Translations under genes and position numbers: made by a program
In this document: positions 1-22,030 of the stretch, piece by piece
Layout of the letters: each line of letters begins with the position of its first letter
How positions within the stretch are numbered: position 1 is the stretch's first letter
Notes under the pieces: model-generated
Database searches by the model: none
What the model was told of the DNA's origin: nothing
What the model saw: the letters and a program-made list of their open reading frames with translations, nothing else
IMG/VR virus record: IMGVR_UViG_3300006802_000589
Span: 1 to 23,583 of that record
Reading direction: 5' to 3' (one strand)
From: a virus
DNA length: 23,583 nt

Positions 1-3000
1 GATGTAAGCGGCACCTACAATGCCATAGTCGTTGCTGACGACAGCCACAATCACATCATAGCCAACGTGGACGGCTTGCAGACCGCACTGGATGGCAAGT
101 CGGCAACTAGCCACAACCACACGCTTGACGGCCTCTCCAACACGACCATCACCAGCAATACCTCTGGCGAAATTCTCAAGTGGAACGGTTCTGCGTGGGT
201 CAACAACACGCTGGCCGAGGCTGGCATACAGCCCACTGGTAGCTACCTGACAGGCAACCAAACAATTACCCTGTCTGGTGACGCCACTGGCTCTGGAACT
301 ACATCTATTGTTGTTACTGTTGCAGATGACAGCCACAACCACATCATCAGCAACGTCGATGGCCTACAGACTGCACTGGACGCCAAGCTGAACCTGTCCG
401 GCGGTACTATGACTGGCTCCCTTACAATGGGTGCTAATAATATTTATATGTCGAACTCAAATATTAGTGGCGTCAATAATCTCTATATTAACGACCCCGG
501 AGAAGGTATTACTTTCCAAGGTACAACTAATGTAACTTTGGCAGCGATTGATGATGCTACTGATAGTATTATGGACTTTGCTGGTGCAACAGAATTACGC
601 CGTAATAATAATAAAGTCTGGGACGCTGGTAATGATGGTGCAGATAGTGGCCTTGATGCTGATCTGCTGGACGGTCAGCAGGGTTCCTACTATGCGCCCA
701 AAACAATAGGTGTTTATTATGTAACTGGCACAGGCACTGTAGCTGGAACGTGGACAGGCTCAAACTCCGACATTGATTCCTACTACGAAGGTCTTGTAGT
801 AAAATTCAAGATCAACATTGCAGGTGCCTCTACCACCACCTTAAACATTAACGGTTTAGGTGCCAAAACGGTTTATCTTTATGGCACCACTAAGCTGACC
901 ACACATTATCCGGTAGGCACTGTTCTTGACCTAACCTACACGAATGACAATGGTGGCTCGTTCTATGCTACGATGTGGTATGACACCACGGACGACTATC
1001 GTATTCGCTGGCAGAACAACATTACTGCGGGGGCATACATCCACGGCTATCAGCTTCTGCTAGAAGGCATGGATGGCAAGTTCTACCCGGTTACTGAAGG
1101 CGGGGCAAATAGCACTACGAATACGGTATCGACTGCTTCATTTAAGCCGCAGGGCACTATGCTGTATTACGATACCAGCACAGACATTGCGGCTAATGCC
1201 ACGGCAGGCGGATACTCCCTCTATGAAGGCCTTTACACAGGCACAATGGAGTATTGGTCAAACCGCTCCACGACAGCATGGGCTACTACTGGACTGCCTG
1301 TATATCTCGTAGGGTCTATCAACTCCAGCGGTGCGTTCATCCTTGACAATAGCACCACGACAGCGTTCTTGACTCAAGACCTGCCCACCTCCGCTGATGG
1401 CAAGGTCTATATGCAGGTTGGTGTTATGAACAACACGACCGACGCTATACGTCTGGCCGTGAATCACCCAATCTTTGAATATATAGATGGGGCCATTCGT
1501 CCGTATGCGTATGATAGCGGCAACCAGACCATCACACTGTCTGGCGACCTTACTGGCTCAGGCACAACTTCTATAAACGCACAGATTGCTGCAAATGTTG
1601 TTGGCGCTAACGAGTTGAATGTGACCGGAAATGGTACAACGGCCCAATACTTGCGTTCTGACGGTGATGGCTCTTTCTCATGGGCTACTCCAACAGACAC
1701 TAATACTACTTATAGTGCGGGTAGTGGTATCAGCCTTTCTGGCACTACTTTCAGTGTAGCTGCCGGGACTGGGCTTACACAAGACGCAGGTGGATTGTCA
1801 GTAACCGCAAACGGCATTAGTGCCGCCCAGCTTAATGTCACAGGTAATGGTACTACTACACAATACCTCCGCTCTGATGGCGATGGCTCCTTTACTTGGG
1901 CTACACCGACTGACACAAACACGACCTACAGTGCTGGCTCTGGATTAACTCTATCAGGCACTACATTCAGTCATTCTGATACTTCTAGTCAAACGTCTGT
2001 GAATAACTCTAACGGTGTTGTTATACAAGACGTATCTCTGGATACATATGGTCACGTTACTGGATTAATATCTGCTGATCTTGATGGTCGTTATTACACT
2101 GAGTCAGAATCTGACGCACGATATCTTCGCAAAAACACCAACGACACATCGGTCGGCTATATCGCTGCTGAAGGGTTTGTAAACACAGGGGCTGGCTCCC
2201 TGTCGATCTTCAACCCGCACAATGCTAACTATGCGACCACGACCTCAACAGTGACTGGTGCAATTAAGATCACGTTGCCAGTGTCTTGGACGAACACCAT
2301 GATGCGGATGACTATCCGTATTTATGAGTATGCGACCAACGAGGGCTTCGATGTTGTTTGTGGCGGCTATAACTACAGTCCGAGTTCATCTTGGAGCAAC
2401 CCGTTTGCCTACATCCTTGGCAACCCCAACGTAAACCGGAACTTCAACATCCGTTTCGGTCACGATGGCACCAATTGCTGCATCTACATTGGTGAAACTA
2501 CGTCAACGTGGTCTTACCCGCAGGTGGCGGTGACGCAATTTGTGGCTGGATACAGCAACTATTCGGCTGAAACTTGGAATGACGGATGGGATATTGGCTT
2601 TGTCACAACGCTCGGCACGATAACCCAAACCATCTCCAACTCGGAAGTTGGTCGTTATGTGGACAACCAGCTTGTATTCCATGATGGCTATCACCCAAAT
2701 GCTGATAAGCTAACTACAGCCCGCAGCATTGCCCTTACAGGTGATGTAACTGGTAGTGCTAGTTTCGATGGCGCTGCTAATATAAGCATCACTGCTACCG
2801 TTGCTGACGATAGCCACAACCACATCATCAGCAACGTCGATGGTTTGCAGACTGCGCTTGATGGTAAGTCAGCAACGAGCCACAACCACACGCTCGACAG
2901 CCTTTCCAACACGACCATCACCAGCAACACATCTGGTGAAATCCTTAAATGGAATGGCACAGCTTGGGTGAATAACACGCTGGCAGAGGCTGGCATTCAG

Positions 3001-3840
3001 CCTTCTGGCAGCTATCTGACGGGCAACCAGACCATCACGCTGTCCGGTGACGCCACTGGTTCTGGCACTACGTCTATTGTCGTTACTGTAGCAGATGACA
3101 GCCACAACCACATCATCGGCAATGTTGATGGCTTGCAGACTGCTTTGGATGGGAAGCTGAACCTGTCGGGCGGCACGATGACTGGGGTTATTACCAGTAC
3201 TGGCGGTAGTACTACGGCAGGCGTCATAGAAACTGACGACACAGATCAATGGTGGATAAAGCTCTCTTCATATGATGTAGGTATATATTGGAACACTACC
3301 AACAACCATATAAACCTACGAAACACATATGGTAACTTGCAGTATAACGGCAACAATGTCTGGCATTCAGGCAACGATGGATCAGGCTCTGGCTTAGATG
3401 CTGACTTGCTGGATGGCCTTCAGGCCGCTTCGTTCCTACGCAAAGACACCAGTGATACATCCACTGGAACAATCAGCGCAGCCACCTTCAACGCCACCAG
3501 CACTACCAACGGCGGCTTCCAAGGTATTGATGCTGACACGGCAGCTTCTCCGTCCTTTACTTGGAGTGCTGACCTTAACACGGGCATCTGGCGTCCCGGT
3601 GCTGACCAAGTTGGTATTACTACTGGCGGCTCAAATAGGGTTACAGTGAGCACTACTGCTGTAACCTCGACGCTTCCGCATCGCATAACTGGAGGACAAC
3701 CGTTCTGGGAAAATTCTCAAGCGGTTACATCTAGCTACACAATAACGGATGGATACAATGCCATGTCGGCTGGCCCGATCACGATCAACTCCGGTGTCAC
3801 TGTTACGGTTGGCGCAGGCGAAACATGGACGGTGGTATAA
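1..3840 (+). CDS. Large modular tail fibre protein, 5' end outside window
   Basis: The frame is open from base 1, so the gene begins upstream; the GTG at 67 lies inside a repeat unit and is not the start. At least 1279 residues are visible. They are low in Cys and rich in Thr, Ser, Gly and Asn, as in trimeric fibre shafts. Known fibre motifs include DARYLRK (near 2116), DADLLDG (twice, near 655 and 3400) and SGGTMTG (near 396 and 3165). Four copies of a SHNHII...LQT-LD unit occur at 31-99, 319-387, 2800-2868 and 3088-3156. A non-repetitive beta-type domain lies at about 2170-2680. The C-terminus (near 3730-3837) ends in a hydrophobic-alternating strand finishing TWTVV, common at fibre ends. 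It probably reaches from the tail towards the host surface. Base composition is mosaic, with AT-rich patches (about 421-640) in a GC-richer frame. The next gene starts directly after the stop. Confidence 0.9.
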   Translation, partial: DVSGTYNAIVVADDSHNHIIANVDGLQTALDGKSATSHNHTLDGLSNTTITSNTSGEILKWNGSAWVNNTLAEAGIQPTGSYLTGNQTITLSGDATGSGTTSIVVTVADDSHNHIISNVDGLQTALDAKLNLSGGTMTGSLTMGANNIYMSNSNISGVNNLYINDPGEGITFQGTTNVTLAAIDDATDSIMDFAGATELRRNNNKVWDAGNDGADSGLDADLLDGQQGSYYAPKTIGVYYVTGTGTVAGTWTGSNSDIDSYYEGLVVKFKINIAGASTTTLNINGLGAKTVYLYGTTKLTTHYPVGTVLDLTYTNDNGGSFYATMWYDTTDDYRIRWQNNITAGAYIHGYQLLLEGMDGKFYPVTEGGANSTTNTVSTASFKPQGTMLYYDTSTDIAANATAGGYSLYEGLYTGTMEYWSNRSTTAWATTGLPVYLVGSINSSGAFILDNSTTTAFLTQDLPTSADGKVYMQVGVMNNTTDAIRLAVNHPIFEYIDGAIRPYAYDSGNQTITLSGDLTGSGTTSINAQIAANVVGANELNVTGNGTTAQYLRSDGDGSFSWATPTDTNTTYSAGSGISLSGTTFSVAAGTGLTQDAGGLSVTANGISAAQLNVTGNGTTTQYLRSDGDGSFTWATPTDTNTTYSAGSGLTLSGTTFSHSDTSSQTSVNNSNGVVIQDVSLDTYGHVTGLISADLDGRYYTESESDARYLRKNTNDTSVGYIAAEGFVNTGAGSLSIFNPHNANYATTTSTVTGAIKITLPVSWTNTMMRMTIRIYEYATNEGFDVVCGGYNYSPSSSWSNPFAYILGNPNVNRNFNIRFGHDGTNCCIYIGETTSTWSYPQVAVTQFVAGYSNYSAETWNDGWDIGFVTTLGTITQTISNSEVGRYVDNQLVFHDGYHPNADKLTTARSIALTGDVTGSASFDGAANISITATVADDSHNHIISNVDGLQTALDGKSATSHNHTLDSLSNTTITSNTSGEILKWNGTAWVNNTLAEAGIQPSGSYLTGNQTITLSGDATGSGTTSIVVTVADDSHNHIIGNVDGLQTALDGKLNLSGGTMTGVITSTGGSTTAGVIETDDTDQWWIKLSSYDVGIYWNTTNNHINLRNTYGNLQYNGNNVWHSGNDGSGSGLDADLLDGLQAASFLRKDTSDTSTGTISAATFNATSTTNGGFQGIDADTAASPSFTWSADLNTGIWRPGADQVGITTGGSNRVTVSTTAVTSTLPHRITGGQPFWENSQAVTSSYTITDGYNAMSAGPITINSGVTVTVGAGETWTVV
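31..416 (+). repeat. Duplicated 129-codon fibre module, copy 1
   Basis: This stretch corresponds to 2800-3185 at a constant offset of 2769 bases. The 129 encoded residues differ at only six conservative positions between copies, while many third codon positions differ. Each copy begins and ends with a SHNHII...LQT-LD unit. Confidence 0.9.
2800..3185 (+). repeat. Duplicated 129-codon fibre module, copy 2
   Basis: This is the partner of 31-416 within the same fibre gene. The block contains TLD(G/S)LSNTTITSNTSGE, WVNNTLAEAGIQP and GNQTITLSGDATGSGTTS in the same order in both copies. Confidence 0.9.
3732..3764 (+). repeat. 33-base exact direct repeat, copy 1
   Basis: Identical to 14243-14275. 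It lies near the 3' end of the fibre gene and encodes SYTITDGYNA plus one Met codon. Both copies are read in the same codon phase. Confidence 0.9.
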
Positions 3841-4197
3841 ATGAGCACACTCAAGGTAAACAGTATTGTCCCAGCCAACGCAGGCTCTGAGGACTATTCC
3901 CTAGTGAGGGCTTGGGCTGCTAAATTCTACGATTTCGGCATTGAGGGCGACGATTTTAATGTAAGCTCATACACCGATTTGGGAACAGATGTTGGAGTCA
4001 CATTCAGCGCATCATTTGCAACCGCAGGCTATGCCGTTGTCTGCAATGCAGATAGAGTTGGTTTATCTGGGACAATCGCTAGATTTGCTATGGCGGCAGA
4101 TCACACGACCTCTGGATTTACTGCGGCCTGCTGGACTACAACCCCTGCAACTAGCACTGTTGGTATGAGCTTTTCGGCACATGGGAGTATGGCATGA
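3841..4197 (+). CDS. Small fibre-tip-like protein (tip 1)
   Basis: This 118-aa protein opens MSTLKVNSIVPANAGSE and has an Ala/Thr/Ser-rich beta-type body. The opening and the later A-Y-A-V-V segment match the pattern of the 4583 gene (MSVIKVDTIQTASGTE, N-Y-A-V-G), so the two appear to be paralogues. Domains of this kind commonly form the C-terminus of phage tail fibres; here it is a separate protein. The ATG follows the fibre stop with no gap, and its own stop overlaps the next gene in ATGA (4194-4197). The context suggests that it binds the fibre end or recognises the host surface. This is inferred from position and resemblance; no catalytic motif is visible. Confidence 0.7.
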   Translation: MSTLKVNSIVPANAGSEDYSLVRAWAAKFYDFGIEGDDFNVSSYTDLGTDVGVTFSASFATAGYAVVCNADRVGLSGTIARFAMAADHTTSGFTAACWTTTPATSTVGMSFSAHGSMA

Positions 4198-4586
4198 CCA
4201 ACTACCGTGTGATCTATGAAGACCCTGATGATCTGGATGCACCAGCCAAGGTGCTTGTCCCGTCTGACAACTGGATGGCTGACGCTATGGCTGGCAAGCT
4301 GCCACCGATCTGGGTCTACTGGCAACTACAGGACGACGAGGCTCAGGCCATCGCTGAAGGGCGTCACAGCACCTTTAGGCACAACCCTGAGAAGCTGGCC
4401 CTGCAATACACTGCGCCCCGCATTGGCCCTCTCACTGAGGAAGAGGCCATTGAGTATCTGATTATGAAGGACATCCCCCGCCGAGTGTGGGGCAAGGAGC
4501 ACAACCGGCCTATGTTCAAGATTGTGACCAAGGATCAGGTGCCGAGTGATCGGTCGTTCCGCAACGCATGGAGGCTCGCAGCATGA
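4194..4586 (+). CDS. Putative tail fibre chaperone, N-terminal-type half
   Basis: This is a 130-aa acidic, soluble protein beginning MTNYRVIYEDPDDLDAPAKV, without signal peptide or membrane segment. Its last residues contain PSDRSFRNAW (4542-4571). The same ten-residue phrase, eight positions identical, occurs near the start of the 4927 product. In phage proteins of this kind, from memory, that phrase joins an N-terminal domain to a C-terminal helical domain containing an A-K-x-I-x-x-x-K-I-R-x-A-R pattern. Here the protein stops five residues after the phrase, so it looks like the front half of a chaperone whose back half is the 4927 gene. It is coupled by ATGA at both ends. A fibre-assembly role is inferred from neighbours and from this family resemblance. 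Confidence 0.6.
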   Translation: MTNYRVIYEDPDDLDAPAKVLVPSDNWMADAMAGKLPPIWVYWQLQDDEAQAIAEGRHSTFRHNPEKLALQYTAPRIGPLTEEEAIEYLIMKDIPRRVWGKEHNRPMFKIVTKDQVPSDRSFRNAWRLAA

Positions 4587-4915
4587 GTGTCATCAAGGTT
4601 GATACAATCCAGACTGCTTCTGGCACAGAGGTATACACGGCAAAGGCTTGGGTGAGGTTCAACGGCTCAAGCATTACAATCTATGGAAGCGGTAATGTCT
4701 CAAGCATTACGGACAATGGTGTTGGCATTTTCACAACAAATTTCAGCTCTAATCTTGCGTCCAGCAACTACGCTGTGGGCGCTTGCTCTGGAACCAGTAA
4801 TGTCCGAATTCCTGCAATCCAGACTTGGACGACTAGCAGTAGCCAATGTGAGTGGACGAACCATTCTGTCGTTTATTGTGATGTGAGCAGTGCCGATATG
4901 CTTTACACTCTTTAG
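4583..4915 (+). CDS. Small fibre-tip-like protein (tip 2)
   Basis: The product is 110 aa from the ATG at 4583. I chose this start over the in-frame ATG at 4568 because it makes the ATGA overlap with the preceding stop, has GGAGG eight bases upstream (4570-4574), and gives the N-terminus MSVIKVDTIQTASGTE, which aligns with tip 1. The body (AKAWVRFNGS, then SGNVSSITDNGVG) is the pattern of a beta-rich domain often found at the distal end of phage tail fibres. It has several cysteines, unlike the fibre shaft. The likely role is a fibre tip or receptor-contacting subunit. It lies between the two apparent halves of a chaperone (4194 and 4927 genes), which suggests it was inserted there. Confidence 0.7.
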   Translation: MSVIKVDTIQTASGTEVYTAKAWVRFNGSSITIYGSGNVSSITDNGVGIFTTNFSSNLASSNYAVGACSGTSNVRIPAIQTWTTSSSQCEWTNHSVVYCDVSSADMLYTL

Positions 4916-4926
4916 AGGAGCTACAC

Positions 4927-5280
4927 ATGACTAAAACATTCACGAAAATTGGGGCAATCCTCTACGACAACTCTCTCTGGCAGGCTCCCTCCGACCGGAC
5001 CTTTCGAGATGCGTGGGCATCTGCTGGTGCAGACAGCGGTGTCATCACCGTTGACATGGACAGAGCCAAGGACATCTGGCGGGAGAAAATCCGTCAAGCC
5101 CGTGACTTTGCTCCTCTGGATGCAGCCTTTATGAAGGCACTGGAGACTGGCGCTGATGCCTCTTCCGTTACTGCCCAGAAGCAAGCCCTGCGAGATGCAC
5201 CTGCTGATCCTGCCATTGATGCAGCCACCACGCCGGAGGAACTCAAGGCGGTCCAACCCGCTGGACTGAAGGTGGACTAA
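4927..5280 (+). CDS. Putative tail fibre assembly chaperone, C-terminal-type half
   Basis: This 117-aa protein follows a strong GAGGAG site directly after the previous stop. After a short N-terminus comes PSDRTFRDAW (4987-5016), then a helical part with VDMDRAKDIWREKIRQAR, a conserved-looking KQALRDAPADPAI stretch, and TPEELKAV near the end. This series is familiar from small proteins encoded just after tail fibre genes and thought to act in fibre assembly. It lacks the N-terminal domain usual in longer members; that part resembles the separate 4194 product. The function is inferred from family and position; the family recognition is from memory, with no search run. Confidence 0.65.
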   Translation: MTKTFTKIGAILYDNSLWQAPSDRTFRDAWASAGADSGVITVDMDRAKDIWREKIRQARDFAPLDAAFMKALETGADASSVTAQKQALRDAPADPAIDAATTPEELKAVQPAGLKVD

Positions 5281-5281
5281 G

Positions 5282-5632
5282 ATGCCAAGCTATATCAGAG
5301 GCGACGACAACTTTGACAGCGCAAATTTCGGGCCTAATGTAACTGTAGGGGCCGTTGGGACTTACGCTTGGCTCATGCGGACCGACTCAACTGCAAACGT
5401 GACTGCTGGAGACACAGTGGCAGGGTCCGGTCTTTTTTACGCTGCATTTTCGGCGGCAGCTTGGTCAATAAGCACCACCAATCACGCATTTGATGACGAG
5501 GCTGGCGACTTGGGCATGGGTCCGGGGACAGATTATAGGGTTAATCCATCTGGAACGTGGAGAGCTTGCGGGACCAGCTCCTCTGCTTCGTCGTATGGCT
5601 ACTCTACAACTCTTTGGGTGAGGATTTCGTGA
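5282..5632 (+). CDS. Small fibre-tip-like protein (tip 3)
   Basis: This 116-aa protein starts one base after the previous stop, with GAAGGTGG upstream, and ends in TGATG overlapping the next ATG. The sequence VGAVGTYAWLMR, then GDTVAGSGL, PSGTWRACG and the ending TLWVRIS follow the pattern of a C-terminal tail-fibre domain found in many phages (VG-x-Y, GxTVxGS-x-L, SGTWRxxG, LWVRIS). As a free-standing protein it would be an interchangeable fibre tip. It is not obviously related to tips 1 and 2, so the cassette carries at least two tip types. Its partner is the chaperone at 5632. Confidence 0.7.
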   Translation: MPSYIRGDDNFDSANFGPNVTVGAVGTYAWLMRTDSTANVTAGDTVAGSGLFYAAFSAAAWSISTTNHAFDDEAGDLGMGPGTDYRVNPSGTWRACGTSSSASSYGYSTTLWVRIS

Positions 5633-6039
5633 TGCAATATCGCAATGCAAAATATATCGACGAAAGTTCGGTGCTGATTGACTGCGAGATTGAGCATCCA
5701 GTCTACGGCTGGATACCATATACGATTGACCCAGCCGACACTGACATGACGATTGACAACAGCGTCCTTCTCGCTGCGATACACGAAGCTGGTGATGTCG
5801 AGCCATACGTTCCGCCAACGCAGGAAGAGCTTGATGCAGAGGCGGCAAAACAAGCCCGTGCAGCTCGGAACAGGATTTTGTCGAAGCAGGTTGACCCAAT
5901 CGTCACTAACCCCCTGCGCTGGGCCGAGATGACCGCAGAGCAACAGCGGGCTTGGACGGACTACCGCCGTGCATTGCTCGACATCACAGATCAGTCCGGC
6001 TTCCCAACAGACATTGCTTGGCCGACTAAACCGGAGTAG
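5632..6039 (+). CDS. Phage tail assembly chaperone-like protein
   Basis: The product is 135 aa from the ATG at 5632, which shares TGATG with the stop of the tip gene; the more upstream in-frame start at 5557 would lie deep inside that gene. The C-terminal third is diagnostic: a helix with AARNRILSKQVDPI, then LRWAEMTAEQQRAWTDYRRA, then LDITDQSGFP...WPTKP. This matches the phage tail assembly chaperone domain (Pfam Phage_tail_APC type) usually encoded just downstream of fibre or tip genes. The N-terminal part is a small acidic beta-type region. It probably helps the adjacent tip or fibre fold and trimerise, and is not expected in the mature virion. It is the last gene of the GC-rich block. Confidence 0.8.
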   Translation: MQYRNAKYIDESSVLIDCEIEHPVYGWIPYTIDPADTDMTIDNSVLLAAIHEAGDVEPYVPPTQEELDAEAAKQARAARNRILSKQVDPIVTNPLRWAEMTAEQQRAWTDYRRALLDITDQSGFPTDIAWPTKPE

Positions 6040-6044
6040 CTTAA

Positions 6045-7373
6045 GTGTTAGGCTTTAGCGCACTATCCCAAACAGCATTTTCAGAAGCAACAACATCTCT
6101 TGATGCTATTGTAACTATTACTGCTACAGTAGCTTCTGCTGTTAATTCTGCTGTAGAAGTAGACGCTAAAGCCCATATAGCCTGTGACTCCGTAAGTTCT
6201 TCTACTACTGCATCTTCTCTTGACTATGTAGCTATTGCAAGTATAACTACAGGAACTGTTTCTTCTCAAGTAGTAGCCTCTGACTTTGCTGATGTAGATG
6301 CACAGGCTAACATTACAGCTACCGCAATTACTGCTGTTATTGCTGCGTATGACTTTTCAGATGTTGATGCTCAGTCTAATATTACACTAAACTCTGTTGC
6401 ATCAACTATTACAGTTTACGGGCTATCTGATGTAGATGCTCAGGCCAATATTACAGCAGACGTAGTTACTGTAGTTACAGCAATAGAGGCTCTTGATAGC
6501 GTAGACGCACAGGCTAACTACGTTGTTACAGGCGTTGCATCTTCATTTGCCATAGACAATCTTGCTGATGTTGATGCACGAGCATCTATTGTTGTTTCTG
6601 CCAACAATGTTATGCAGCTTAGCTTTGGTAAAGCTGTTGATGCATTTGACGCTGATGCTAACGTCACACTTGAAGCAGCTACTGCTGTTGCATCTGTTAC
6701 TGCGATAGAAGATGTGCACCTAACAGCTAATCCAGTTGTTAGCTCTACTACAGCAAGCATTGTAAATAATGCCTTTACAGATGTAGATGCAAAAGCTACA
6801 ATAGTAGTAACTGCTAATAACTTGATGCAGCTTAGCTTTGGTAAAGCTGTTGATGCTTATGACGCTGACGCTAATGTTACTTTACAAGCTGTTACTGCTG
6901 TTGCATCTGTTACCGCCATAGATGTCCATATAACAGCTAATCCAGTTGTTAGCTCTACTACAGCAAGCATTGTAAATAGTGTCTTTACAGATGTAGTAGC
7001 AAGAGCTACAATAGCTGTAACTGCTAATAACTTGATGCGGCTTAGCTTTGGTAAAGCCGTTGATGCTTATGACGCAGATGCTAATGTTACTATACAATCT
7101 GTTACAGCAATAGGTGAGATAGAACTCTTTACGTATAAGATAGATGTTAAGACAACTGCCTCGTCAGTTTCTGCTTCTATTGTTGATAGTGCAGTTACAA
7201 CAAATGTCATCAACACTTTCCCATATGGTAACTTTGCAGAAGACTATAGCAGAAACAGACTTATTTATGTATCTGCCTTTGATAAGAATAAGCAGGTATA
7301 TGTAACTCCAATGAACTTCTCTGTTGTAATTCAGCCAGACCACAGAGATAACTTTGTGTATATTGCAGCATAA
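6045..7373 (+). CDS. Repeat-rich putative virion surface/fibre protein
   Basis: The product is 442 aa from a GTG at 6045 with GGAG eight bases upstream. After MLGFSALSQTAFSEA, an opening I recognise from phage virion proteins in similar positions, almost the whole protein is Val/Ala/Thr/Asp repeats. Short DVDAQANI-type units come first, then three longer units of about 70 residues with NNLMQLSFGKAVDAYDADAN (6561-7110). The last 40 residues are not repetitive (NRLIYVSAFDKNKQVYV, PDHRDNFVYIAA) and look like a small folded cap. No catalytic motif, signal or membrane segment is seen. Composition and position between fibre genes and the adaptor suggest a structural or decorating fibre-like protein; its exact role is unknown. 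AT-rich codon use begins here. Confidence 0.65.
   Translation: MLGFSALSQTAFSEATTSLDAIVTITATVASAVNSAVEVDAKAHIACDSVSSSTTASSLDYVAIASITTGTVSSQVVASDFADVDAQANITATAITAVIAAYDFSDVDAQSNITLNSVASTITVYGLSDVDAQANITADVVTVVTAIEALDSVDAQANYVVTGVASSFAIDNLADVDARASIVVSANNVMQLSFGKAVDAFDADANVTLEAATAVASVTAIEDVHLTANPVVSSTTASIVNNAFTDVDAKATIVVTANNLMQLSFGKAVDAYDADANVTLQAVTAVASVTAIDVHITANPVVSSTTASIVNSVFTDVVARATIAVTANNLMRLSFGKAVDAYDADANVTIQSVTAIGEIELFTYKIDVKTTASSVSASIVDSAVTTNVINTFPYGNFAEDYSRNRLIYVSAFDKNKQVYVTPMNFSVVIQPDHRDNFVYIAA
6561..7110 (+). repeat. Three tandem ~70-residue coding repeats
   Basis: Units start at about 6561, 6774 and 6984, 213 and 210 bases apart. Forty-eight bases are identical between 6721-6768 and 6931-6978, and 32 bases between 6612-6643 and 6825-6856. 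The second unit lacks one Glu codon relative to the first, and the third is incomplete. Such near-identity suggests recent expansion or ongoing homogenisation. Confidence 0.85.
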
Positions 7374-9965: not shown

Positions 9966-12947
9966 ATGGCAGGATATACACGGCAAGACACACCAGACCA
10001 CATCTCCAATGGTAGTGTTATTAACGCAGATGATTTAGATGGAGAGTTTAACGCCATTGAATCAGCCTTTGATTCTGTAAATGGCCATACGCATGATGGC
10101 ACCGCTGCTAGTGGTGCACCTATTACTAAGGTAGGTCCGGGTCAAGACATTACGGTAACTACAGCTACTGTAATTCCAAAGCTTACAAATACACTTAGCT
10201 TAGGCACAGCTGACATCCAGTTTCAGGATGGCTACTTTGATGGGCTTGTTCGTACTGACGAACTCATTGTAGACGAAACATCTACACTAACAGGTGCTGT
10301 CACTGCTTCTGGCGGTATCACAGGCGACTTGACGGGGGCTGTTACAGGCAACGTAACGGGCAACTTGACAGGTAATGTCACTGGTAACGTTACTGGAGAT
10401 GTTGTAGGTAACGTAACGGGTGATCTTACTGGTAACGTAACTGGTGATGTTATGGGTGCGCTGACAGGCAATGTCACAGGAGATGTGACAGGTAATGTTG
10501 TTGGCGATGTTACTGGCGACCTTACTGGTAACGTTAGTGGTAATGTCACAGGTAATGTTACAGGAAATCTAACAGGTAGTGTAACTGGTCCTTTTACTGG
10601 TAACTTGACTGGTAATGTCACAGGCAATGTAACAGGTAACGTTACAGGAAACGTTACTGGTACTGTGTCTAGTCTGTCAAATCATACGACAGACACTTTG
10701 ACACAAGGTGCTACTAATAAGTACTTCTCTAACACCTTGGCTAGAGGTGCTATCAGTGTAAGTGATACTGGTGGAGATGGCTCCATTACCTACAATAGCA
10801 CTTCTGGTGTTATTACTTACAGTGGCCCTACAGCTACAGAGGTACGTTCTCACTTTACTGCTGGTGGTGGTATTGCCATTAGCAATGGTATTATCTCTGT
10901 TGCAGACGCAACTAATACAGAAGCAGGTATCGCTACCTTTGCTAGTACAGACTTTATTGTAGCAGATGGAAACGTCACCATTCAGCCAGAACGTATTCAA
11001 GATATCGTAGGTGCTATGGTATCCAGCAATACTGAAACTGGTCTTGCTGTAACATATGATGACGCTGATGGTACGCTTGACTTTGTTCTGAGTGCTGATC
11101 CTACTATTACTCTTACTGGTGATGTTGTAGGCTCTGGGACTATGACAAACCTTGGTAGCGTTAGCATTGCTACAACTGTGCAGCCAAACTCTGTTGCTCT
11201 TGGTGCGGACACTACAGGCAATTACGTAGCTGGTGCTGTCGCTGGTACTGGTGTTACTATCACAGGTACTGCTGGTGAGGGCTGGTCGCCCACTATTTCT
11301 ATTGGTCAGCCAGTAGCTACAACTTCTAACGTACAGTTTGCTAACATTACAGGGACAGGTAATCTATCCGTTGGCGGTGATGCAACTATCACAGGCGACC
11401 TGACTGTTACTGGCACCTTTACCACAACTAACACAGAAACTCTTACTGTTACTTCACAGTATGTTACTGTTAACAATGGTCAAACAGGTACACCTGCTCT
11501 TGATGGTGGTCTTGAGATTGAACGTGGCACTGAAACTAATAAGCTCCTGTCGTGGAATGAAACTACAGACAAGTGGACTGTAGGCACTGAGACTTTTGTT
11601 GCAGGTACATTTGAAGGCGATCTTACGGGTGATGTTACTGGTGATGTAACAGGTAACTTGACAGGCAACGTAACTGGAAATGTCACAGGAAACGTGTCAG
11701 GCTCTTCTGGCTCTACTACAGGCAACGCTGCTACGGCATCTAAGCTTCTAACCTCTCGTACGATTGCCCTTACAGGTGACGTTACTGGCAGTACTACATT
11801 TGATGGTACTACTAATGTAACAATCACTGCTGTTGTAGCAGATGATTCGCACAATCACATCATTGCAAACATTGACAATCTTCAAACTACACTAGACGCT
11901 AAAGCTCTTGGTACTACCAACTTTAGTGCTGGTAACGGTTTGACTGGCGGCGGTACTCTTGCCGCTGATAGAGCATTTAATGTTGGTGCTGGTGCTGGTA
12001 TTACTGTTACTGCTGATGCAGTGGCACACTCAGATACATCTACACAGGCGTCTGTTGCTAATACTGGGCGTACGTATATTCAGAGTATTACTCTTGATGA
12101 CTTCGGCCATATTACAGCTATCACATCTGGAACAGAAACTGTAGTCAACACAGACACAGATACAACATACAGTGCTGGTACTGGCCTTAATCTTACTGGT
12201 ACTACCTTTAGCACTAAGCAAGATATTGCTACCACTGCAAGCCCAAGCTTTGTAGCTGTAACTGCTAACCTTACAGGCAATGTCACTGGTAATGCTAGTA
12301 CAGCAACTAAACTTGCTACAGCAAGAACTATTGCTGGTAAATCTTTTGATGGTACTGCAAATATTACTATTGCACCAACAGACCTTACAGGGGTAACTTC
12401 TACTGCTGCAGAAATTAATACTCTTGATGGGTTCACTGGCACTGTAACTGACCTTAACTACGCAAAAGATTTACGTGCTACTGGCGTAACTTCGACCGAG
12501 TTTGATTACTTAGATGGCGTTACTAGCAATATCCAAACTCAGTTCAATACACTGACAAGCAACGTAAGTGGTAAAGAGCCTGCTGATGCAGACATCCTAA
12601 AAGCTGATGTTTCTAAGAACCTAACTGTAGGTTATACTAGCACGGCTGACGATGATGGGAACCAGTCTCCTAGTGTCAATGCGGGTTCATATACACCCTC
12701 TCCAGCAGAAGGCAACCTAAAGCGTATTGTTAATGCAGGTGCGTTTACGCTTAATGCTCCTACAGCATCTGGAGATTACACAATGATAATCCAGATGACC
12801 AATGCAAGTACGGCTGGAACTGTTACTGTTTCTGGTTTCACTAGAACAACTGGTGATGTTCTTACTACAACCAGCGACGACGACTTCTTCTTGTACATCA
12901 CTAAGATTAACAACTTTAAAACTCTACATATAACGGCGCTTCAATAA
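9966..12947 (+). CDS. Second large tail fibre with TGxV repeat shaft
   Basis: This is a 993-aa protein with AAGGA upstream. The N-terminus (YTRQDTPDHISNGSVINADD, GEFNAIESAFDSVNGHTHDG) is a typical virion-anchoring start of marine phage fibres. A shaft follows: 29 four-residue T-G-x-hydrophobic units at 10320-10667, with shorter arrays near 11617-11700 and 12264-12290. Middle modules include ALTGDVTGS plus a SHNHII...LQT unit (11835-11903) like those of the fibre at 1-3840, two TTYSAG-type modules, and TSTAAEINTLDG / TSTEFDYLDGVTSN near 12400-12530. The last 80 residues (RIVNAGAFTLNAPT, FFLYITKINNFKTLHI) are a familiar fibre C-terminal domain. It is translationally coupled to the 252-aa protein at 12947. 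Confidence 0.9.
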   Translation: MAGYTRQDTPDHISNGSVINADDLDGEFNAIESAFDSVNGHTHDGTAASGAPITKVGPGQDITVTTATVIPKLTNTLSLGTADIQFQDGYFDGLVRTDELIVDETSTLTGAVTASGGITGDLTGAVTGNVTGNLTGNVTGNVTGDVVGNVTGDLTGNVTGDVMGALTGNVTGDVTGNVVGDVTGDLTGNVSGNVTGNVTGNLTGSVTGPFTGNLTGNVTGNVTGNVTGNVTGTVSSLSNHTTDTLTQGATNKYFSNTLARGAISVSDTGGDGSITYNSTSGVITYSGPTATEVRSHFTAGGGIAISNGIISVADATNTEAGIATFASTDFIVADGNVTIQPERIQDIVGAMVSSNTETGLAVTYDDADGTLDFVLSADPTITLTGDVVGSGTMTNLGSVSIATTVQPNSVALGADTTGNYVAGAVAGTGVTITGTAGEGWSPTISIGQPVATTSNVQFANITGTGNLSVGGDATITGDLTVTGTFTTTNTETLTVTSQYVTVNNGQTGTPALDGGLEIERGTETNKLLSWNETTDKWTVGTETFVAGTFEGDLTGDVTGDVTGNLTGNVTGNVTGNVSGSSGSTTGNAATASKLLTSRTIALTGDVTGSTTFDGTTNVTITAVVADDSHNHIIANIDNLQTTLDAKALGTTNFSAGNGLTGGGTLAADRAFNVGAGAGITVTADAVAHSDTSTQASVANTGRTYIQSITLDDFGHITAITSGTETVVNTDTDTTYSAGTGLNLTGTTFSTKQDIATTASPSFVAVTANLTGNVTGNASTATKLATARTIAGKSFDGTANITIAPTDLTGVTSTAAEINTLDGFTGTVTDLNYAKDLRATGVTSTEFDYLDGVTSNIQTQFNTLTSNVSGKEPADADILKADVSKNLTVGYTSTADDDGNQSPSVNAGSYTPSPAEGNLKRIVNAGAFTLNAPTASGDYTMIIQMTNASTAGTVTVSGFTRTTGDVLTTTSDDDFFLYITKINNFKTLHITALQ
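10320..10667 (+). repeat. Array of 29 four-residue (12-base) TGxV coding repeats
   Basis: The unit is Thr-Gly-(Asn/Asp)-(Val/Leu); most positions vary only between Asn and Asp or Val and Leu. Val, Met or Ser replaces Thr in four units. The DNA copies differ at wobble positions. A beta-helix or beta-prism shaft is the likely fold. Confidence 0.9.
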
Positions 12948-13705
12948 TGTTTTCATCTCCTAATCCTGTAACTGTAACAGAACAAGCCAAGCTGAACGCA
13001 ACTTATGTTGGTCAAGCCACAGCTATGGGTAGTGCTATTTCTGTTACCATGAATCCCTCTGCAGGTACAGCTAAAGGCTATAGACATTTAATTGTGATTG
13101 TAGCTGGTAATAGTGCAAGAGGGGGGTCTGCTACCGCTGTCACTAATACTGTAACTATTAATGGCAGTCTAGCTACAGAAATAGCCGGGTATCGTACAGC
13201 AGATACTAACCCTTCATCTCAAGTACAAGCTCACTTTCAAGTTTTTTATACAAATGCTGTAGTAACAGGCACAACAGTTGAAGTTGGTATGACTGGAATT
13301 CTTTCTGGTGGATATTACTACAGTAAGCATTGTGCAGTATATGAAGTCCATCGTAAACCACAGCTTGTCGGGGAAGTTAAATGGAAAGGTAATGCTTTAG
13401 ATGCCGCTCAGACACTAAGTCCTACCTATGCTCCCGGCTGTATGCTTATTGGGTGGGGTTCAGTGTTAGAAAATCACGGGGCTTTTGATATCAGTGGCTA
13501 TGAGTACTTAGCATCTTCTATTGGAGTGTATTTTCCTGCATCTTCTACAGAGTGTGAGATTATTAATCCAACCTATTTTAATGGCGCTAGTGGGTGGAGA
13601 GTAAAAGATTATGCAGGAAATTACATTTCTACGTCCTATGGTAGATCATATGCTGGCCTAAATTATCCTGCAGGGCGGCAAGGCTATGCGGTAACATTAA
13701 ACTAA
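12947..13705 (+). CDS. Uncharacterised fibre-coupled protein, possible tip or adhesin
   Basis: This 252-aa protein starts in a TAATG overlap with the second fibre gene, so the two are probably made together. It is beta-rich and Tyr/Gly-rich, with YRHLIVIVAGNSARGG, then a strand series ending HCAVYEVHRKP, then TYAPGCMLIGWGSV, and a Tyr/Gly-rich end (SYGRSYAGLNYPAGRQGY). The strand order loosely resembles a beta-sandwich domain found in some phage surface proteins, but I do not recognise the family. No signal peptide, membrane helix or enzyme motif is visible. Location suggests that it caps or decorates the fibre and may contact the receptor; that is inference. Confidence 0.5.
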   Translation: MFSSPNPVTVTEQAKLNATYVGQATAMGSAISVTMNPSAGTAKGYRHLIVIVAGNSARGGSATAVTNTVTINGSLATEIAGYRTADTNPSSQVQAHFQVFYTNAVVTGTTVEVGMTGILSGGYYYSKHCAVYEVHRKPQLVGEVKWKGNALDAAQTLSPTYAPGCMLIGWGSVLENHGAFDISGYEYLASSIGVYFPASSTECEIINPTYFNGASGWRVKDYAGNYISTSYGRSYAGLNYPAGRQGYAVTLN

Positions 13706-13979: not shown

Positions 13980-15998
13980 ATGGCACAAAACTTTGGTATG
14001 AACACAGCACCGTATGCTCAGCCTATTAATCAGGGTAATATGTTTGGTGGATTTAAACCAGACGCAATGCAGCGTATTGCTGGTTCGTTAGGTTATACTG
14101 GCGACATGTCAGGTTTTGAACAGTATTTGCAACATAACCCAGATAAGCAACAACGAATGAATTACTATAACCAGATGGGTATGCAAATGGCTGCTGGTGG
14201 TTATGTTAAGAAGATGGCTGATGGGGGTACAACTTCTACTGATAGCTACACAATAACGGATGGATACAATGCCATTTCTACTGAAGTTCTTCCTCAACAA
14301 TATATTCCTACACAAGATGTTGCAGAAGATGCAACGCTTACAGGTATTACAAAAGATTTAATTAAAACTCCTGCACTTCCTGTTGGCGCTGTTACGGTTC
14401 CAGTTGGTACTGTTGCTACAGAAGAGCAGTTTATTCCAACTACATCTGGTCAAGTTACTGGTGATTTAGCTGCTACTACTACAGCTGCTACAGCTGCTAA
14501 AGCTACTATGCCAAAACAGTTTGCTGCTCCTACAGTTGAAGCAAAAACTGTGACATCTGATGTAGAAAAAACACTAGAAGGTACACAAGCTGCTCAAGGT
14601 GAAGTTGGCCCAAATGCTGTTGTTCAAGCACAAGCATTGAATGAAAGTTCCGTGTCTAAGTTAGAAGCTGCTCAAGGCACAGGTATCATGATGGATAATC
14701 CCGTACAACGGGAAATTCAATCTGGTGAATTAATTGATGCTGCTGCTAATGCTGAAAAAGCTTCTGCATTTACAGAGCAAGTTCAAGCTGCTACTGCAAC
14801 TCCTTCCCAGAAGGCTACTGTTCAAGGACAGATGCAAGGTCTTATGGATCAGTTTGAAGGTGGCAATACTCCTCCGTGGGCTGCAGGTGCTATGAGGGCA
14901 GCTACTGCAGCTATGGCTGCTAGAGGTTTAGGTGCTTCGTCTTTAGCAGGTCAAGCCTTGATTCAGGCTGCTATGGAAAGTGCTCTGCCTATTGCACAAG
15001 CTGATGCACAAACCACTGCTACATTTGAAATGCAGAACTTGTCAAACAGACAGCAACGTGCTATGCTTGCTGCAGAACAACGTGCTGCTTTCATTGGTCA
15101 GGAGTTTGATCAGAAGTTCCAAGCTAGAGTTTTAAATGCTGCTAAGATTGCAGATGCAGCTAACATGAACTTCACAGCTGAACAACAGATTGCACTTGAG
15201 AATAGCCGTATTGCTAATACCATGAACCTGACTAATCTTAACAACAAGCAGGCTATGGTTATGGCTGAAGCTGCTGCATTAGCTCAACTGGATATGGCTA
15301 ACTTAGACAACAGACAGCAAGCTGCAGTTTTAAATGCTCAGTCATTCTTGCAGATGGACATGGCTAACTTAAGCAACAGACAGTCTATGGCTATGTTTAA
15401 GTCACAGCAACAGATTCAAGCTTTGTTTACTGACCAAGCTGCAGTTAATGCTGCTGAACAATTCAATGCTGCAAATGAAACACAAGTTAAGCAATTCTTT
15501 GCATCGCTTGCATCATCTACATCTCAGTTTAATACATCACAGAAAAATGCTATCTCTCAGTTTAACGCTGGTGAAGCTAACGCAATGAGCAAGTTTAACA
15601 CTGAGGTTAGAAATCAGCGTGAGCAGTTTAATGCACAGAATAGACTTATCATTGACCAGTCGAATGCACAGTGGAGAAGAGAGATTGCTACTGCTGACAC
15701 TGCCGCTATTAATAGAGCAAATGAAATTAACGCTTCTGCCTTGCTAGGAGTACAGCAAACAGCGTATAATAACATGTGGCAACAGTATCGTGACACTATG
15801 GAGTTTGCTTGGAATGCCAGTGATAATCAGCTTGAGCGTATGAATAAGATTGCTATGGCGCAAATGCAGATTGATGCTTCCACTAAGTCAGCGGATAAAG
15901 CTGCAAACGCTTCTATGTGGGGTTCTCTTGGTAGCTTTGCTGGAACACTATTTACTACAGACTTATCAAATACCTTTATCGGTAGCTTATTTAACTAG
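13980..15998 (+). CDS. Putative internal/ejected virion protein, Gln/Asn/Ala-rich
   Basis: This 672-aa protein begins one base after the previous stop. It has a Met/Gln/Gly-rich N-terminus, a MAAGGYVKKMADGG motif (near 14186-14230) that I associate with marine phage virion proteins, and an Ala/Thr/Val-rich low-complexity middle. A long helical C-terminal half shows recurring phrases: NLSNRQQRAML, NLNNKQAMVM, NLDNRQQAAVLNAQ, NLSNRQSMAM, then QFN / KFN phrases at about 15470-15640. Repeated amphipathic helices of this kind suggest a rod- or channel-forming virion protein, perhaps part of an internal core released with DNA. The SYTITDGYNA segment (14244-14273) is shared with the fibre at 1-3840. 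There is no catalytic motif. The role is inferred from composition and location. Confidence 0.55.
   Translation: MAQNFGMNTAPYAQPINQGNMFGGFKPDAMQRIAGSLGYTGDMSGFEQYLQHNPDKQQRMNYYNQMGMQMAAGGYVKKMADGGTTSTDSYTITDGYNAISTEVLPQQYIPTQDVAEDATLTGITKDLIKTPALPVGAVTVPVGTVATEEQFIPTTSGQVTGDLAATTTAATAAKATMPKQFAAPTVEAKTVTSDVEKTLEGTQAAQGEVGPNAVVQAQALNESSVSKLEAAQGTGIMMDNPVQREIQSGELIDAAANAEKASAFTEQVQAATATPSQKATVQGQMQGLMDQFEGGNTPPWAAGAMRAATAAMAARGLGASSLAGQALIQAAMESALPIAQADAQTTATFEMQNLSNRQQRAMLAAEQRAAFIGQEFDQKFQARVLNAAKIADAANMNFTAEQQIALENSRIANTMNLTNLNNKQAMVMAEAAALAQLDMANLDNRQQAAVLNAQSFLQMDMANLSNRQSMAMFKSQQQIQALFTDQAAVNAAEQFNAANETQVKQFFASLASSTSQFNTSQKNAISQFNAGEANAMSKFNTEVRNQREQFNAQNRLIIDQSNAQWRREIATADTAAINRANEINASALLGVQQTAYNNMWQQYRDTMEFAWNASDNQLERMNKIAMAQMQIDASTKSADKAANASMWGSLGSFAGTLFTTDLSNTFIGSLFN
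14243..14275 (+). repeat. 33-base exact direct repeat, copy 2
   Basis: Identical to 3732-3764. It lies inside the 672-aa virion protein gene, just after MADGG, encodes SYTITDGYNA plus one Ile codon, and flanking bases do not match copy 1. Confidence 0.9.
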
Positions 15999-17981: not shown

Positions 17982-20900
17982 ATGGCAAATCCTGTAACAC
18001 CTATTAATAAAGAATACGACTATAGTGCAGTACCAAGTTATTCTGGTGCTGGTGTTGCTGTGTCTGATCCTAAAGAATATGACTACAGTGCTGTTCCTAG
18101 TTTTTCTGGTACTGGTTTTTCTGAATCTAAAGCATACGACTATAGTGCTGTTCCTAGTTTTTCATATAATACAACTACCGCACCACAAGCCAGAGATACT
18201 GATGACACAGAGTATGTTGAAATTGATCCTAGAATTTTAGATCGCTTTGAAAAGGAATTGCCGGATTACATTCAAACAAATCTTGATAGGTTAAATACAT
18301 CTTTAGCTACAGCCAAACAATACGAAACTCGTTCACCCCTTGAAGGTTTTAGAATTGGTGGTGTTGATCCAATAGAAACTGTTCTAGCTGGTGCTGGTTT
18401 AATGGATGTATCTGAAGACGAGCTTGTTTCTCAGTACGAAGAGAAAGCATTTGCGTTAGACTACTTGTTAAACCAAGATGAGAATCCTGTAAGGCGTACT
18501 TTAGCAAATGAACTTTTTGATAAGGGCTTAAGTATTGACCAAATCTTAATAGACGTTAACGCTGCTGGTTTCGCTCCGGTATACGGCGGAATTGAGTTTG
18601 CATATGACATACCAGAACTAACACGTACTACCGCTGAACTTGCTGAGCAAGGAGAGTATGGTAAGGCTGCTCTTATCGGAGGTATTTCAACTGTTGGTGC
18701 ACTTGCAAGTTTGGCTGGTGCTACTGCTATTGGTAAAGGTGCATTAAGACTAGCACGTAACGGTAGAAATGCCAGACTTAACCGCTCCTTTACTCCATTA
18801 GTTGAGCAGGCTAGACTGGCTGAGATAACAGCATCTGAAACTGCAAGAGTAGATGCAGCTGCAGTTGCTGCACAAAACGTTGACTTAAGAAATAGATTCA
18901 TTTCTGAATACGAACAGCGCACAGGTCAAACAGTTTCTGTTCAAGACGCTGATGGCAACCTTAAGATTGATCCTGATTTAGTTAGGCTCTCTGCAAAAGA
19001 ACGGTTAGCAGATTTAAACCAAGAAGAACTTGTTGATCTGTTTGGTGAAGATAGGCTATTACAGCCTGTTTTAAATCCTGAAAAGATGGATGCTTTAGTA
19101 GCTATGGCATCTGATCTTAGAGCAAAGTTTCCAGATAAATTTCCAGACAACAAGCCTCTTATTGATTCCATATTTGACGTTACGACCACAGAAGAACTCG
19201 TTTCTTCTACAGACTTTTTAGAAACGATAACTAAGTATGGTCTTTCAGTTGACGAATATCTATTAGCAGCTATAGGATCAGGTAGTGAAGCGGGTAAGCT
19301 TTTGAATAGGCTTTCTCAAATTTCTAGAAAGGCTAAGGGGAAGACACTGGCAGGGCAGGATGCTGCTGACGAGGAGAGAAGAAGCATACAGAGGCAACAC
19401 GATTTCTGGAAAGCTGTTCAGCGTGTAGAAAGCTTGCGCCGTGGTGGCATGGTTTCTCAAGTAGCTACAGCTGCCCGTAACCTTTCGTCTGCCGCTATAA
19501 GAATGCCAGCTGAAAGCCTTGGTAATCTTATGGATGAAGTAATCTACAGAGCTAGTGTTGCTAGAAACGTAGAAGGTAAGGGCATTGTTTCTGCTTCTGC
19601 GGAAGGGTTAGGTGCACTGACAGATAGAAATACGTGGGTTGGAGCCTTTAACTCACACAAGTATCTATACAGCAGAAGAGACTTAGCACGTGATTACACA
19701 GAGTATATGCTTAATAGACCTGAACTTAGAAAACAATACGACAGAATGTTTAACAATTTAAATGAGATACAAGAAGCTCAGGGCAAGGGTTCTAATACTG
19801 TATTAGACAAAGTGCTTACTCCTCTTGAGGACACAGTTGATATTTTAAATACACCGAACCGTTGGCAGGAACACACTGTAAGAAGAGCAGTATACTGGTC
19901 TGAAATGGAGAGGCTTTTAAAGAGAGAGTGGAACATTGATTTAAGGGACGCACTCAAAGATGGTAAGATGCGTGAGCTTTTAAACAATGCTCCTTCTGTA
20001 AAGCCTGCAAGAGCTAGGAACTTCGAAGAAATAGTAGACGAATCTATTAACTCAGCTTTGGATGTGACATATGCAAAGCAACCGGATAACATAATGTTTA
20101 GAGAAGTTACTAGCTTTTTGACTAGGTATGGGTTTACTGCGCTTATTCCCTTTCCAAGATTTATGTTTAGCTCAATGGAGTTATTCGGTCAGTATGCTGG
20201 TGGCGGATTTGGTGTTGCTGGCAAAAGAATGACAAATAAAATCTTAGGAAAAGAAAATGTACCACTGTATCAGAGTTCCTATGATAGAAAGCGCATTCAA
20301 AGAAACATCATGGGTTGGTCATTGGCTGGTGCAGCCTATGCATACAGATCGTCTGACGATGCACCAGCAGACTATAAAATGATTAACATTGATGACGAAA
20401 CTAAAATGGACACAAGCGCACAGTATCCTATGCGTCAGTTTTTGTACATTGGAGAAGCTGCAAAGAGACTTACAAACGGAACATTTGATGATTGGTTTGA
20501 TCCTGTAGAATTTATCTCAACGTTCTCAGGTATAAACACTAGAAGTAGTGTTGGAAGTGATCTTTTAAAAGACATAGTAGATATAGCTACCTCAAATGAA
20601 GACTTGGGTAAGGGTCAAAAAACATGGGGGTCTGTAGGTAAAATTGTTGGAAACTATCTAAGTACTTACATAGTACCATTTACTCAATACATGGACGCAC
20701 AAAGAGCACTTGGTTTAAAACCAACAGAGTATAAAGAACTTTCAGGTGATCCTGTTTTTGATAGTGCACAAGCGTTCTTTAGTGAAGTAAAGAAGCCTTT
20801 TAAACAGCGTGGCTTTGCTACAGATGAAGAGATGCTTCCAGCAAAACAGTATTTGTTTAGTGAAAACGGGACTAAAGAGAGAGTTGGTTTATGGTCTAAG

Positions 20901-21447: not shown

Positions 21448-21777
21448 CTATCGTTTGTCTCCACTGCCACCTAGTGTACCAGCTTGTAATCGTGCTGACA
21501 GTTTCTGTTCATTCTGTCCTGCGATCATACCCAATGTCAGGTTAAGATCAGTAGCTAGTGCAGCACAGTACCATAGTACGTCACCAATCTCACTGGCAAT
21601 CTGTTCTCGCCAATCCTTTGGTGCATTCTCAAAGCCATCACGAATAAGCTTCTTCACCTTGTTGGCTACCTCACCTGCCTCACCTGCTAGTCCAAGTGCC
21701 GGATACAAAATCTTATGCTCCGGTGGGTAGATTGCAGTACGTGAAGCTGATCGTTGGTATGCGTTAAAGTCAGACAT
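21448..21777 (-). CDS. mazG: MazG-like nucleotide pyrophosphohydrolase
   Basis: The product is 109 aa from the ATG at 21777; the in-frame ATG at 21828 would give 126 aa. I prefer 21777 because GGAGAAG lies seven bases upstream and MSDFNAYQRSASRTAIYP is the usual N-terminus of phage MazG proteins, though the longer start also has an AAGGAAG. Metal-binding motifs are visible: GLAGEAGEVANKVKK (E-x-x-E) and EIGDVLWY (E-x-x-D), and the end has G-x-x-x-GSGDKR. The family cleaves nucleoside triphosphates or related nucleotides to monophosphate and pyrophosphate; phage members are thought to reshape nucleotide pools or alarmones, but which substrate applies here cannot be read. It overlaps the RMF-like gene by eight bases (ATGTCTGA). 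Confidence 0.9.
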   Translation of the reverse strand: MSDFNAYQRSASRTAIYPPEHKILYPALGLAGEAGEVANKVKKLIRDGFENAPKDWREQIASEIGDVLWYCAALATDLNLTLGMIAGQNEQKLSARLQAGTLGGSGDKR

Positions 21778-22030
21778 ACTGTACTTCTCCTTCAGAAATT
21801 GCTCTGCCTCTTTTTGTAGTTTGTTCATTGCGCTTTACTTCCTTCAAGTTCTCAAAGTAAGCAGCGTTGAATCCTCTTTCCCACTCTCTGTATAACATCG
21901 TATCATCGCTGAAGGGATTAACTGTCCTGCCTTTTTTGAAATCTGTAACACCTCTAGTATACTGCACTGATAGAGGTGCATCGTGCTTACCAAGTCCACG
22001 TTCTTTTCTTGAGTTGTTAAGTTTGTTCAT
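21770..22030 (-). CDS. Small protein resembling ribosome modulation factor
   Basis: The product is 86 aa from the ATG at 22030, which forms ATGA with the PhoH stop and is preceded by GAGGAG; a more upstream start at 22066 is less likely. The centre reads YTRGVTDFKKGRTVNPF, then a spacer and EWERGFNAAYFENL. This follows the layout of ribosome modulation factor (RMF): R-G-x-x-x-G/F-x-x-G, N-P-Y/F, then W-x-x-G-W/F-x-x-A. RMF drives dimerisation of 70S ribosomes into inactive 100S particles in stationary phase. The flanks here are longer than in E. coli RMF, and the end is basic and unlike RMF. Activity on ribosomes is inferred from the motif only. It lies between phoH and mazG-like genes. Confidence 0.6.
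   Translation of the reverse strand: MNKLNNSRKERGLGKHDAPLSVQYTRGVTDFKKGRTVNPFSDDTMLYREWERGFNAAYFENLKEVKRNEQTTKRGRAISEGEVQYV

Follow-up and report, generated by a model that had tools for sequence, protein, structure and literature searches.

A candidate three-position cassette of exchangeable fibre tips in a probable HMO-2011-like podovirus

Introduction

Secondary receptor-binding proteins (RBPs) that attach by a short N-terminal peptide are known, as are variable host-recognition islands in marine phages. In phages K1-5, K1E, SP6, KP32 and Menlow-type phages, a second binding protein is attached via a short conserved N-terminal peptide of 7 residues upwards, as described in the accessible part of PMC6872550, and tail fibre and C1q-like genes differ between near-identical genomes of marine and cryoconite phages, according to excerpts of PMC3909814 and PMC7468147. 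The chaperones Pam3 gp25 and Mu Tfa combine a variable client-binding N-terminal part with a conserved, helical C-terminal part, which trimerises in the model for Pam3 gp25 (PMC9608196, in the portion available). Here we analyse a 23,583-base fragment recorded from a marine bacteriophage (IMGVR_UViG_3300006802_000589; hereafter the window), in which a tail fibre gene, its 5' end cut by the window, is followed by genes for three small detached fibre tips and three helper proteins, C1, C2 and C3. We propose, with a probability of about 0.62, that these genes form, in an HMO-2011-like podovirus, a cassette of exchangeable tips for three positions; what would be new is that the tip N-termini act as tags specific to each position, or slot, and are kept while the bodies change.

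The cassette resembles branched RBP systems in having a short N-terminal peptide on a separate protein, several binding proteins and modular exchange. In the accessible part of PMC6872550, those systems carry tailspikes or depolymerases on an anchor or T4gp10-like domain, whereas the window encodes bodies of about 90 residues; it also differs in having three slots with different tags, one tag class with 16 distal clusters, and tip genes interleaved with constant helper genes. No Pfam match to a T4gp10-like or anchor domain was found in the fibre part present, the fibre N-terminus lying outside the window. Metaviromic islands are similar in their variable host-recognition genes, but the available excerpts (PMC3909814, PMC7468147) state no tag, slot or chaperone rule. 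C3 co-varies with its tip in a manner that fits the plan of Pam3 gp25 and Mu Tfa, a variable N-terminal and a conserved C-terminal part; in the portion of PMC9608196 available, however, one chaperone serves one fibre, whereas C1 and C2 of the window do not track the adjacent tips. The accessible sections of HMO-2011-type genome papers (PMC6918029, PMC9038755) do not discuss small tip genes, and our literature search, which left subscription papers largely outside, found no description of the layout, tags or motifs.

Results

Three detached tips of two types follow the fibre gene

The original prediction, made from the window alone, had read this region as three serial tip/chaperone pairs behind one fibre. 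The order fibre, tip 1, C1, tip 2, C2, tip 3, C3, all on the + strand, was borne out, as were the overlaps ATGA at 4194, ATGA at 4583 and TGATG at 5630-5634. Tip 1 (T1; 118 residues, 3841-4197) occupies slot 1 and tip 2 (T2; 110 residues, 4583-4915) slot 2, with tags comprising residues 1-20 (3841-3900 and 4583-4642, respectively). Both match one profile (hereafter T-type) and are 26-30% identical, in agreement with their predicted paralogy. Tip 3 (T3; 116 residues, 5282-5632), in slot 3, joins a 13-residue tag, MPSYIRGDDNFDS (5282-5320), to a GTWR-type body; its distal type differs from that of T1 and T2, as had been anticipated, and against phage isolates it gave only weak matches (best E about 1). 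The view of the tips as detached domains was also supported, and detached T-type proteins retained the N-terminal part of the profile in 256 of 286 cases, compared with 7 of 39 T domains fused to a fibre. A comparison of profiles A1 and A5 was discarded, A5 including three tip-3 proteins with T-type bodies.

Tip N-termini track the slot

Related loci were chosen by their C2 sequence or by two N-terminal motifs, IRG and LKV, described below; they are phylogenetically related, some contigs entered twice via different scans (e.g. L007 and L094), and the counts that follow are not natural frequencies. After removal of tips at least 95% identical within one slot, the nearest neighbour by residues 1-20 came from the same slot for 75/79 tips of interleaved and 98/104 tips of adjacent layout, and the nearest neighbour by body for 51/79 and 73/104, respectively. 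Along the tips of interleaved loci, slot information stands at 97% at the N-terminal end and is down to 48% over the final 20 residues. Slot-1 tips in these loci commonly start MSTLKVNDIEEATSGGGK, and some start MATIKLQGNASGSG, while MSTIKVDNLQTTGGAGLYPAR is a common slot-2 start; another lineage has MASN[LI].VDTL in slot 1, VVSDNFETS in slot 2 and MASEIRG in slot 3. VVSDNFETS, a third, IRG-like tag, was seen in loci L111, L125, L143, L182, L184 and others. The T1 and T2 tags of the window resemble those of the matching slots in L116.

Slot-1 and slot-2 tags share a mean identity of 34% over 12 residues. In seven cross-slot pairs the bodies were 73-99% identical and the tags only 40-50%: the slot-1 tip of L018 with the slot-2 tip of L115 (body 94%, tag 50%), L021/L011 (89%, 50%), L094/L011 (83%, 50%), L114/L145 (74%, 50%), L213/L284 of adjacent layout (99%, 40%), and two further pairs sharing a body at 73%. 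These comparisons show the tags to be slot-specific, in that a body found in two slots carries the tag of each.

For T3 homologues, the first 13 residues are the sole invariant core, MxSxIRGxDNFD[ST]. A DNA pattern covering this core, and containing no start codon, matched 111 IMG/VR stretches, with one match per stretch among the 80 matches listed. The nearest start codon lay exactly 4 codons upstream of the conserved I in 116/116 viral instances (85 distinct proteins, the window and repeat fetches being counted in), whereas a cellular control of 257 Gb of genomes gave 13 matches, 0/13 with a start codon at that position. Because synonymous codons vary while the residues hold, the IRG tag is constrained as protein. 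The 81 IRG-tagged proteins of at least 70 residues, shorter ones being left out, fell into 16 distal sequence clusters, and some of those with a single member may be distantly related to larger ones. Tip 3 thus begins, like the secondary RBPs, with a short conserved peptide that was N-terminal in every viral instance, ahead of diverse bodies for which receptor binding is presumed. A second tag class, MSxLKV[DN]TIQ, comprised at least 91 proteins and at least 17 distal clusters. In an uncultured Manatee Spring phage, a gene whose match to an IRG-tag tip starts at residue 1 lies directly 3' of a gene annotated as a 'T7-like tail fiber'.

Tip bodies differ between loci with near-identical flanks

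Loci that agreed at 98% or above in every slot they had in common were dropped (169 to 160). In 49 locus pairs, drawn from 24 loci, both C1 and C2 reached 90% identity or more. The medians for these pairs were 98% for C1 and 96% for C2, but 45% for T1, 49% for T2 and 36% for T3, and identity fell under 60% for T1 in 34/40, T2 in 41/49 and T3 in 43/46 of these pairs. A single slot could be kept while the others differed (T1 only, 3 pairs; T2 only, 2; T3 only, 1), and at the DNA level in seven pairs, exchanged tips mostly had high identity in the first 60 nucleotides and low identity afterwards. Different tip sets on near-identical flanks occurred in one sample: L099 and L138, from metagenome 3300025869, share C1 at 97% and C2 at 94%, with T1 at 28%, T2 at 36% and T3 at 33%. 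By these sequence comparisons, tip bodies are shown to be exchanged slot by slot between near-identical flanks, which supports the suggestion of exchangeable tips. The related idea of a store of alternative tips appears to apply to the virus population, through this slot-wise exchange, rather than to a switch within a genome. In the window, inverted repeats flanking the tips were only weak pairs, none convincing, no + strand promoter-like site was found inside the tip region, and no reverse transcriptase was found among the open reading frames (ORFs) scanned; there was no sign in this fragment of an invertible switch or a diversity-generating retroelement.

The layout recurs with one C1 and one C2

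Gene order was counted over 190 non-redundant loci, after loci sharing both C2 protein and gene order were dropped. The order of the window recurred in 20/190, with close variants in many more, which is beyond chance. In 15/190 this order lacked C3, in 24/190 a fibre with a fused T domain was followed by C1 and C2 adjacent to each other, and in 7/190 the tip-3/C3 cassette lay between T2 and C2; tip 3 stood ahead of C1 in 5/190 and between C1 and C2 in 7/190. One C1 and one C2 accompanied 1, 2, 3, 4, 5 and 6 tips in 43, 46, 75, 2, 1 and 1 loci, respectively. In HMO-2011, Nostoc phage Nsp-JY18, Microcystis phage Mel-JY33 and Dunaliella virus SI2, no tip separates the C1 homologue from the neighbouring gene that takes the place of C2; C2 itself was identified by profile in SI2 and by search in the other three. 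Because C1 and C2 are adjacent elsewhere and stay single with 1-6 tips, T2 is read as sitting at a C1-C2 junction. One locus, L054, has two C1-C2 sets and a single ORF with two tandem T domains (3854-4606).

The cultured phage HMO-2011 (GU557055) is like the window in having several detached T-type tips with LKV-like tags, C1-C2 and C3-like genes, and unlike it in having another order, with no tip between C1 and C2; no IRG-tag protein was found among its translated genes. This SAR116 phage (L082, 4125-10814) has about seven detached tips and two short proteins with the fibre-end motif FIBC described below. Many of its T-type tips end GDLA just ahead of the next gene, possibly a constraint from translational coupling.

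In the window, the T1 ATG follows the fibre stop TAA without a gap and without a change of frame (3838-3843), and the last C1 codons (tggagg) form a ribosome-binding-like sequence ahead of T2. Junctions between C1 and a T gene were ATGA overlaps in 42/54 cases, and the 75 fibre-T junctions included 33 zero-gap in-frame junctions, 18 ATGA overlaps and 11 with a 1-nucleotide gap. Programmed readthrough from the fibre gene into T1 was disfavoured by the ATGA or 1-nucleotide-gap junctions of other loci, and because junction types vary, translational coupling is the simpler reading. Given the 33 zero-gap in-frame junctions, a fibre-T1 readthrough product may be possible.

C3 is dedicated to tip 3, and C1 and C2 form a constant pair

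All three helpers had been called chaperones. For C3 (135 residues, 5632-6039) this stands, with a match to PF16778, Phage_tail_APC (E 2.1e-10; 40.7 bits against a gathering cut-off of 26.6). It is probable for C2 (117 residues, 4927-5280), which would be a distant and divergent relative of the tail fibre assembly chaperones: the C2 of the window has no PF16778 match, but 17/48 aligned family members match at E <= 0.01 (best 2.1e-6) and 16/48 match phrog_4912, 'tail fiber assembly', while comparison of the C2 and C3 profiles gave a probability of only 50% and a PDB sequence search with the C2 alignment a best E of 0.15. For C1 (130 residues, 4194-4586) the label is unproven, because none of its aligned members (0/48) hits a Pfam family at E <= 0.01; it is a conserved helper whose model is mostly helical (predicted local distance difference test score, pLDDT, 86.7). 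C1 and C2 share a 24-column segment, PSDRxFRxAW.

The proposed pairing of each tip with its own chaperone was retained for T3 and C3 only. C3 lies directly 3' of 23/27 GTW-type tip-3 genes and 0/18 T-type tip-3 genes. Over 457 locus pairs, which share loci, are non-independent and hence carry no P values, and with tip-3 bodies at least 97% identical excluded, the Spearman correlation of the tip-3 body was 0.73 with the C3 N-terminal part, 0.20 with the last 65 residues of C3, -0.03 with C1 and -0.05 with C2. T1 and T2 bodies gave correlations of 0.02 to 0.19 with C1 or C2 (pairs with C1 under 60% dropped). C3 is thus, by co-variation, the dedicated chaperone of tip 3, and C1-C2 is one conserved pair that lies directly behind the fibre in phages with a single fused tip. 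One chaperone per tip was rejected, as C1 and C2 are adjacent behind fused fibres and single with 1-6 tips.

A conserved fibre end precedes many detached tips

The fibre gene (1-3840 in the window) has phage tail repeats (PF12789, 1.5e-15) and ends in a C-terminal cap motif, FIBC (about 3463-3837), which terminates in GPITINSGVTVTVGAGETWTVV and is a candidate docking end. FIBC was found within 4.2 kb upstream of 54/56 IRG-tag tips having enough sequence; the exceptions were L156, whose fibre end looks similar but escaped the profile, and L132, which has a fused tip. A FIBC gene preceded 0/34 loci with a fused first tip. Among 155 detached-tip loci, a FIBC gene preceded the tip in 82, another gene in 41, and the upstream sequence was cut off in 32. 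A 30-nucleotide sequence of the fibre end (3733-3762) is identical (30/30) to one within an unrelated 672-residue ORF 10.5 kb away (14244-14273); identity is lost abruptly in the flanks, 0 such repeats are expected by shuffling, and only one other exact copy was found in IMG/VR (L327).

Phage affiliation and other features of the window

The window probably derives from an HMO-2011-like podovirus, because a 1141-residue protein (17982-21407) resembles Roseobacter phage CRP-345 (41% identity over 87%) as well as Puniceispirillum phage HMO-2011 (42% over 74%), and the region 7383-7700 matches PF23148, a podophage fibre-tail adaptor (2e-17); the DNA polymerase used for typing lies outside the window. 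A 442-residue ORF with a GTG start (6045-7373) has no convincing family match and contains a 210-nucleotide tandem repeat (6612-7105). A second fibre-like gene (9966-12947) holds a 12-nucleotide-based GGTAATGTTACT repeat array (10368-10666), and directly 3' of it a 252-residue protein with no family match (12947-13705) is a possible further adhesin. MazG-like and PhoH genes lie on the minus strand (21448-22728).

Discussion

We infer a cassette in which the tags dock, FIBC serves as socket, and the tips are present jointly in the virion and bind receptors. The fibre would end in the conserved FIBC cap as socket candidate, and three separate tip proteins would be made by coupled translation in one operon. 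Each short N-terminal tag would direct its tip to a single position, at the fibre end or on the tail, leaving the remaining ~90 residues as an exchangeable receptor-binding body. C1 and C2 would be a constant helper pair for T-type tips, common to phages with fused tips, whereas the C3 N-terminal part would recognise the tip-3 body and move along with it. Single tips would be swapped when homologous recombination takes place within the fibre end, tags, C1 and C2, all of them conserved, and host range could therefore change by parts. A broader proposal, which we advance tentatively, is a position code: three, sometimes more, N-terminal addresses would define separate sockets on one fibre end of abundant aquatic phages, and any receptor-binding body with the right address, and its own chaperone where needed, could be plugged in by recombination, so that host range would evolve combinatorially.

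Several observations weigh against this cassette model, in addition to the relatedness of the sampled loci. T residues 21-50 still give a slot signal of 82-85% in interleaved loci, and the last 20 residues retain 71% in the adjacent layout, contrary to a purely N-terminal code there. If interleaving aided independent exchange, a gain over the adjacent layout might be expected; one tip was kept with the other under 60% in 11/110 interleaved and 0/149 adjacent pairs, a comparison that did not show such a gain and was uninformative. Because the gene preceding the tip in 41 detached-tip loci has no detected FIBC end, although a few of these ends look similar, FIBC appears to be a good candidate socket for this lineage and not a universal one. 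For the C1 model, structural comparison gave no match (none in the PDB at E <= 1e-3; VIA Z at most 2.7). The all-beta T2 model (pLDDT 78.8) has no PDB match at E <= 1e-3 either, and its best VIA Z, 4.7, shared by SadB, BclA and the phiAB6 tailspike, is not distinctive. The T2 model did have 13 viral matches in BFVD at E <= 1e-3, mostly unnamed but including one named tail fibre, with Syn5 and ACG-2014f tail fibres at weaker E; a PDB sequence search with the T alignment gave no match. Because the T2 matches in the PDB are weak, we only infer a receptor-binding role for the tips, from position, variability and family.

An alternative that we consider unlikely is that the tags are a mere 5' homology arm for tip recombination, kept by linkage to a conserved upstream gene and by translational coupling. 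The tags do adjoin conserved genes on their 5' side, at ATGA or zero-gap junctions, and the DNA breakpoints fall just past them; but tag residues stay constant while synonymous codons vary, the interleaved 3' ends, equally near to conserved C1 and C2, lack a slot signal (48%), the IRG tag precedes its 16 distal clusters on diverse contigs, and the tag region is mostly missing from fused T domains. It is also improbable that a particle carries one tip, or that extra tips are decoys or spares, such that the cassette is a store and not a co-displayed set. Cross-binding could follow from the relatedness of slot-1 and slot-2 tags (the mean 34% over 12 residues), and tip number ranges from 1 to 6, as such a store would allow. 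Slot-specific tags, coupled translation, and a tip region with neither a + strand promoter-like site nor a convincing flanking inverted repeat argue instead that the tips are probably displayed together. Three independent tip/chaperone pairs, as in the original prediction, seem very improbable: C3 is genuinely dedicated to tip 3, but C1 and C2 occur as an adjacent pair behind fused fibres, stay single whatever the tip number, and do not track T1 or T2.

The cassette model addresses the question of how abundant marine phages switch host on a near-constant genome. That a tag stays with its slot while the body moves is a concrete, testable rule, by which many small phage genes now called 'hypothetical' could be assigned as tips and given a predicted position, and tip repertoires could be read straight from metagenomes. 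The co-variation of C3 offers a sequence-only route to matching tips with their chaperones. One-at-a-time swapping of tips, with tags and helpers kept, would be a simple natural route to host change.

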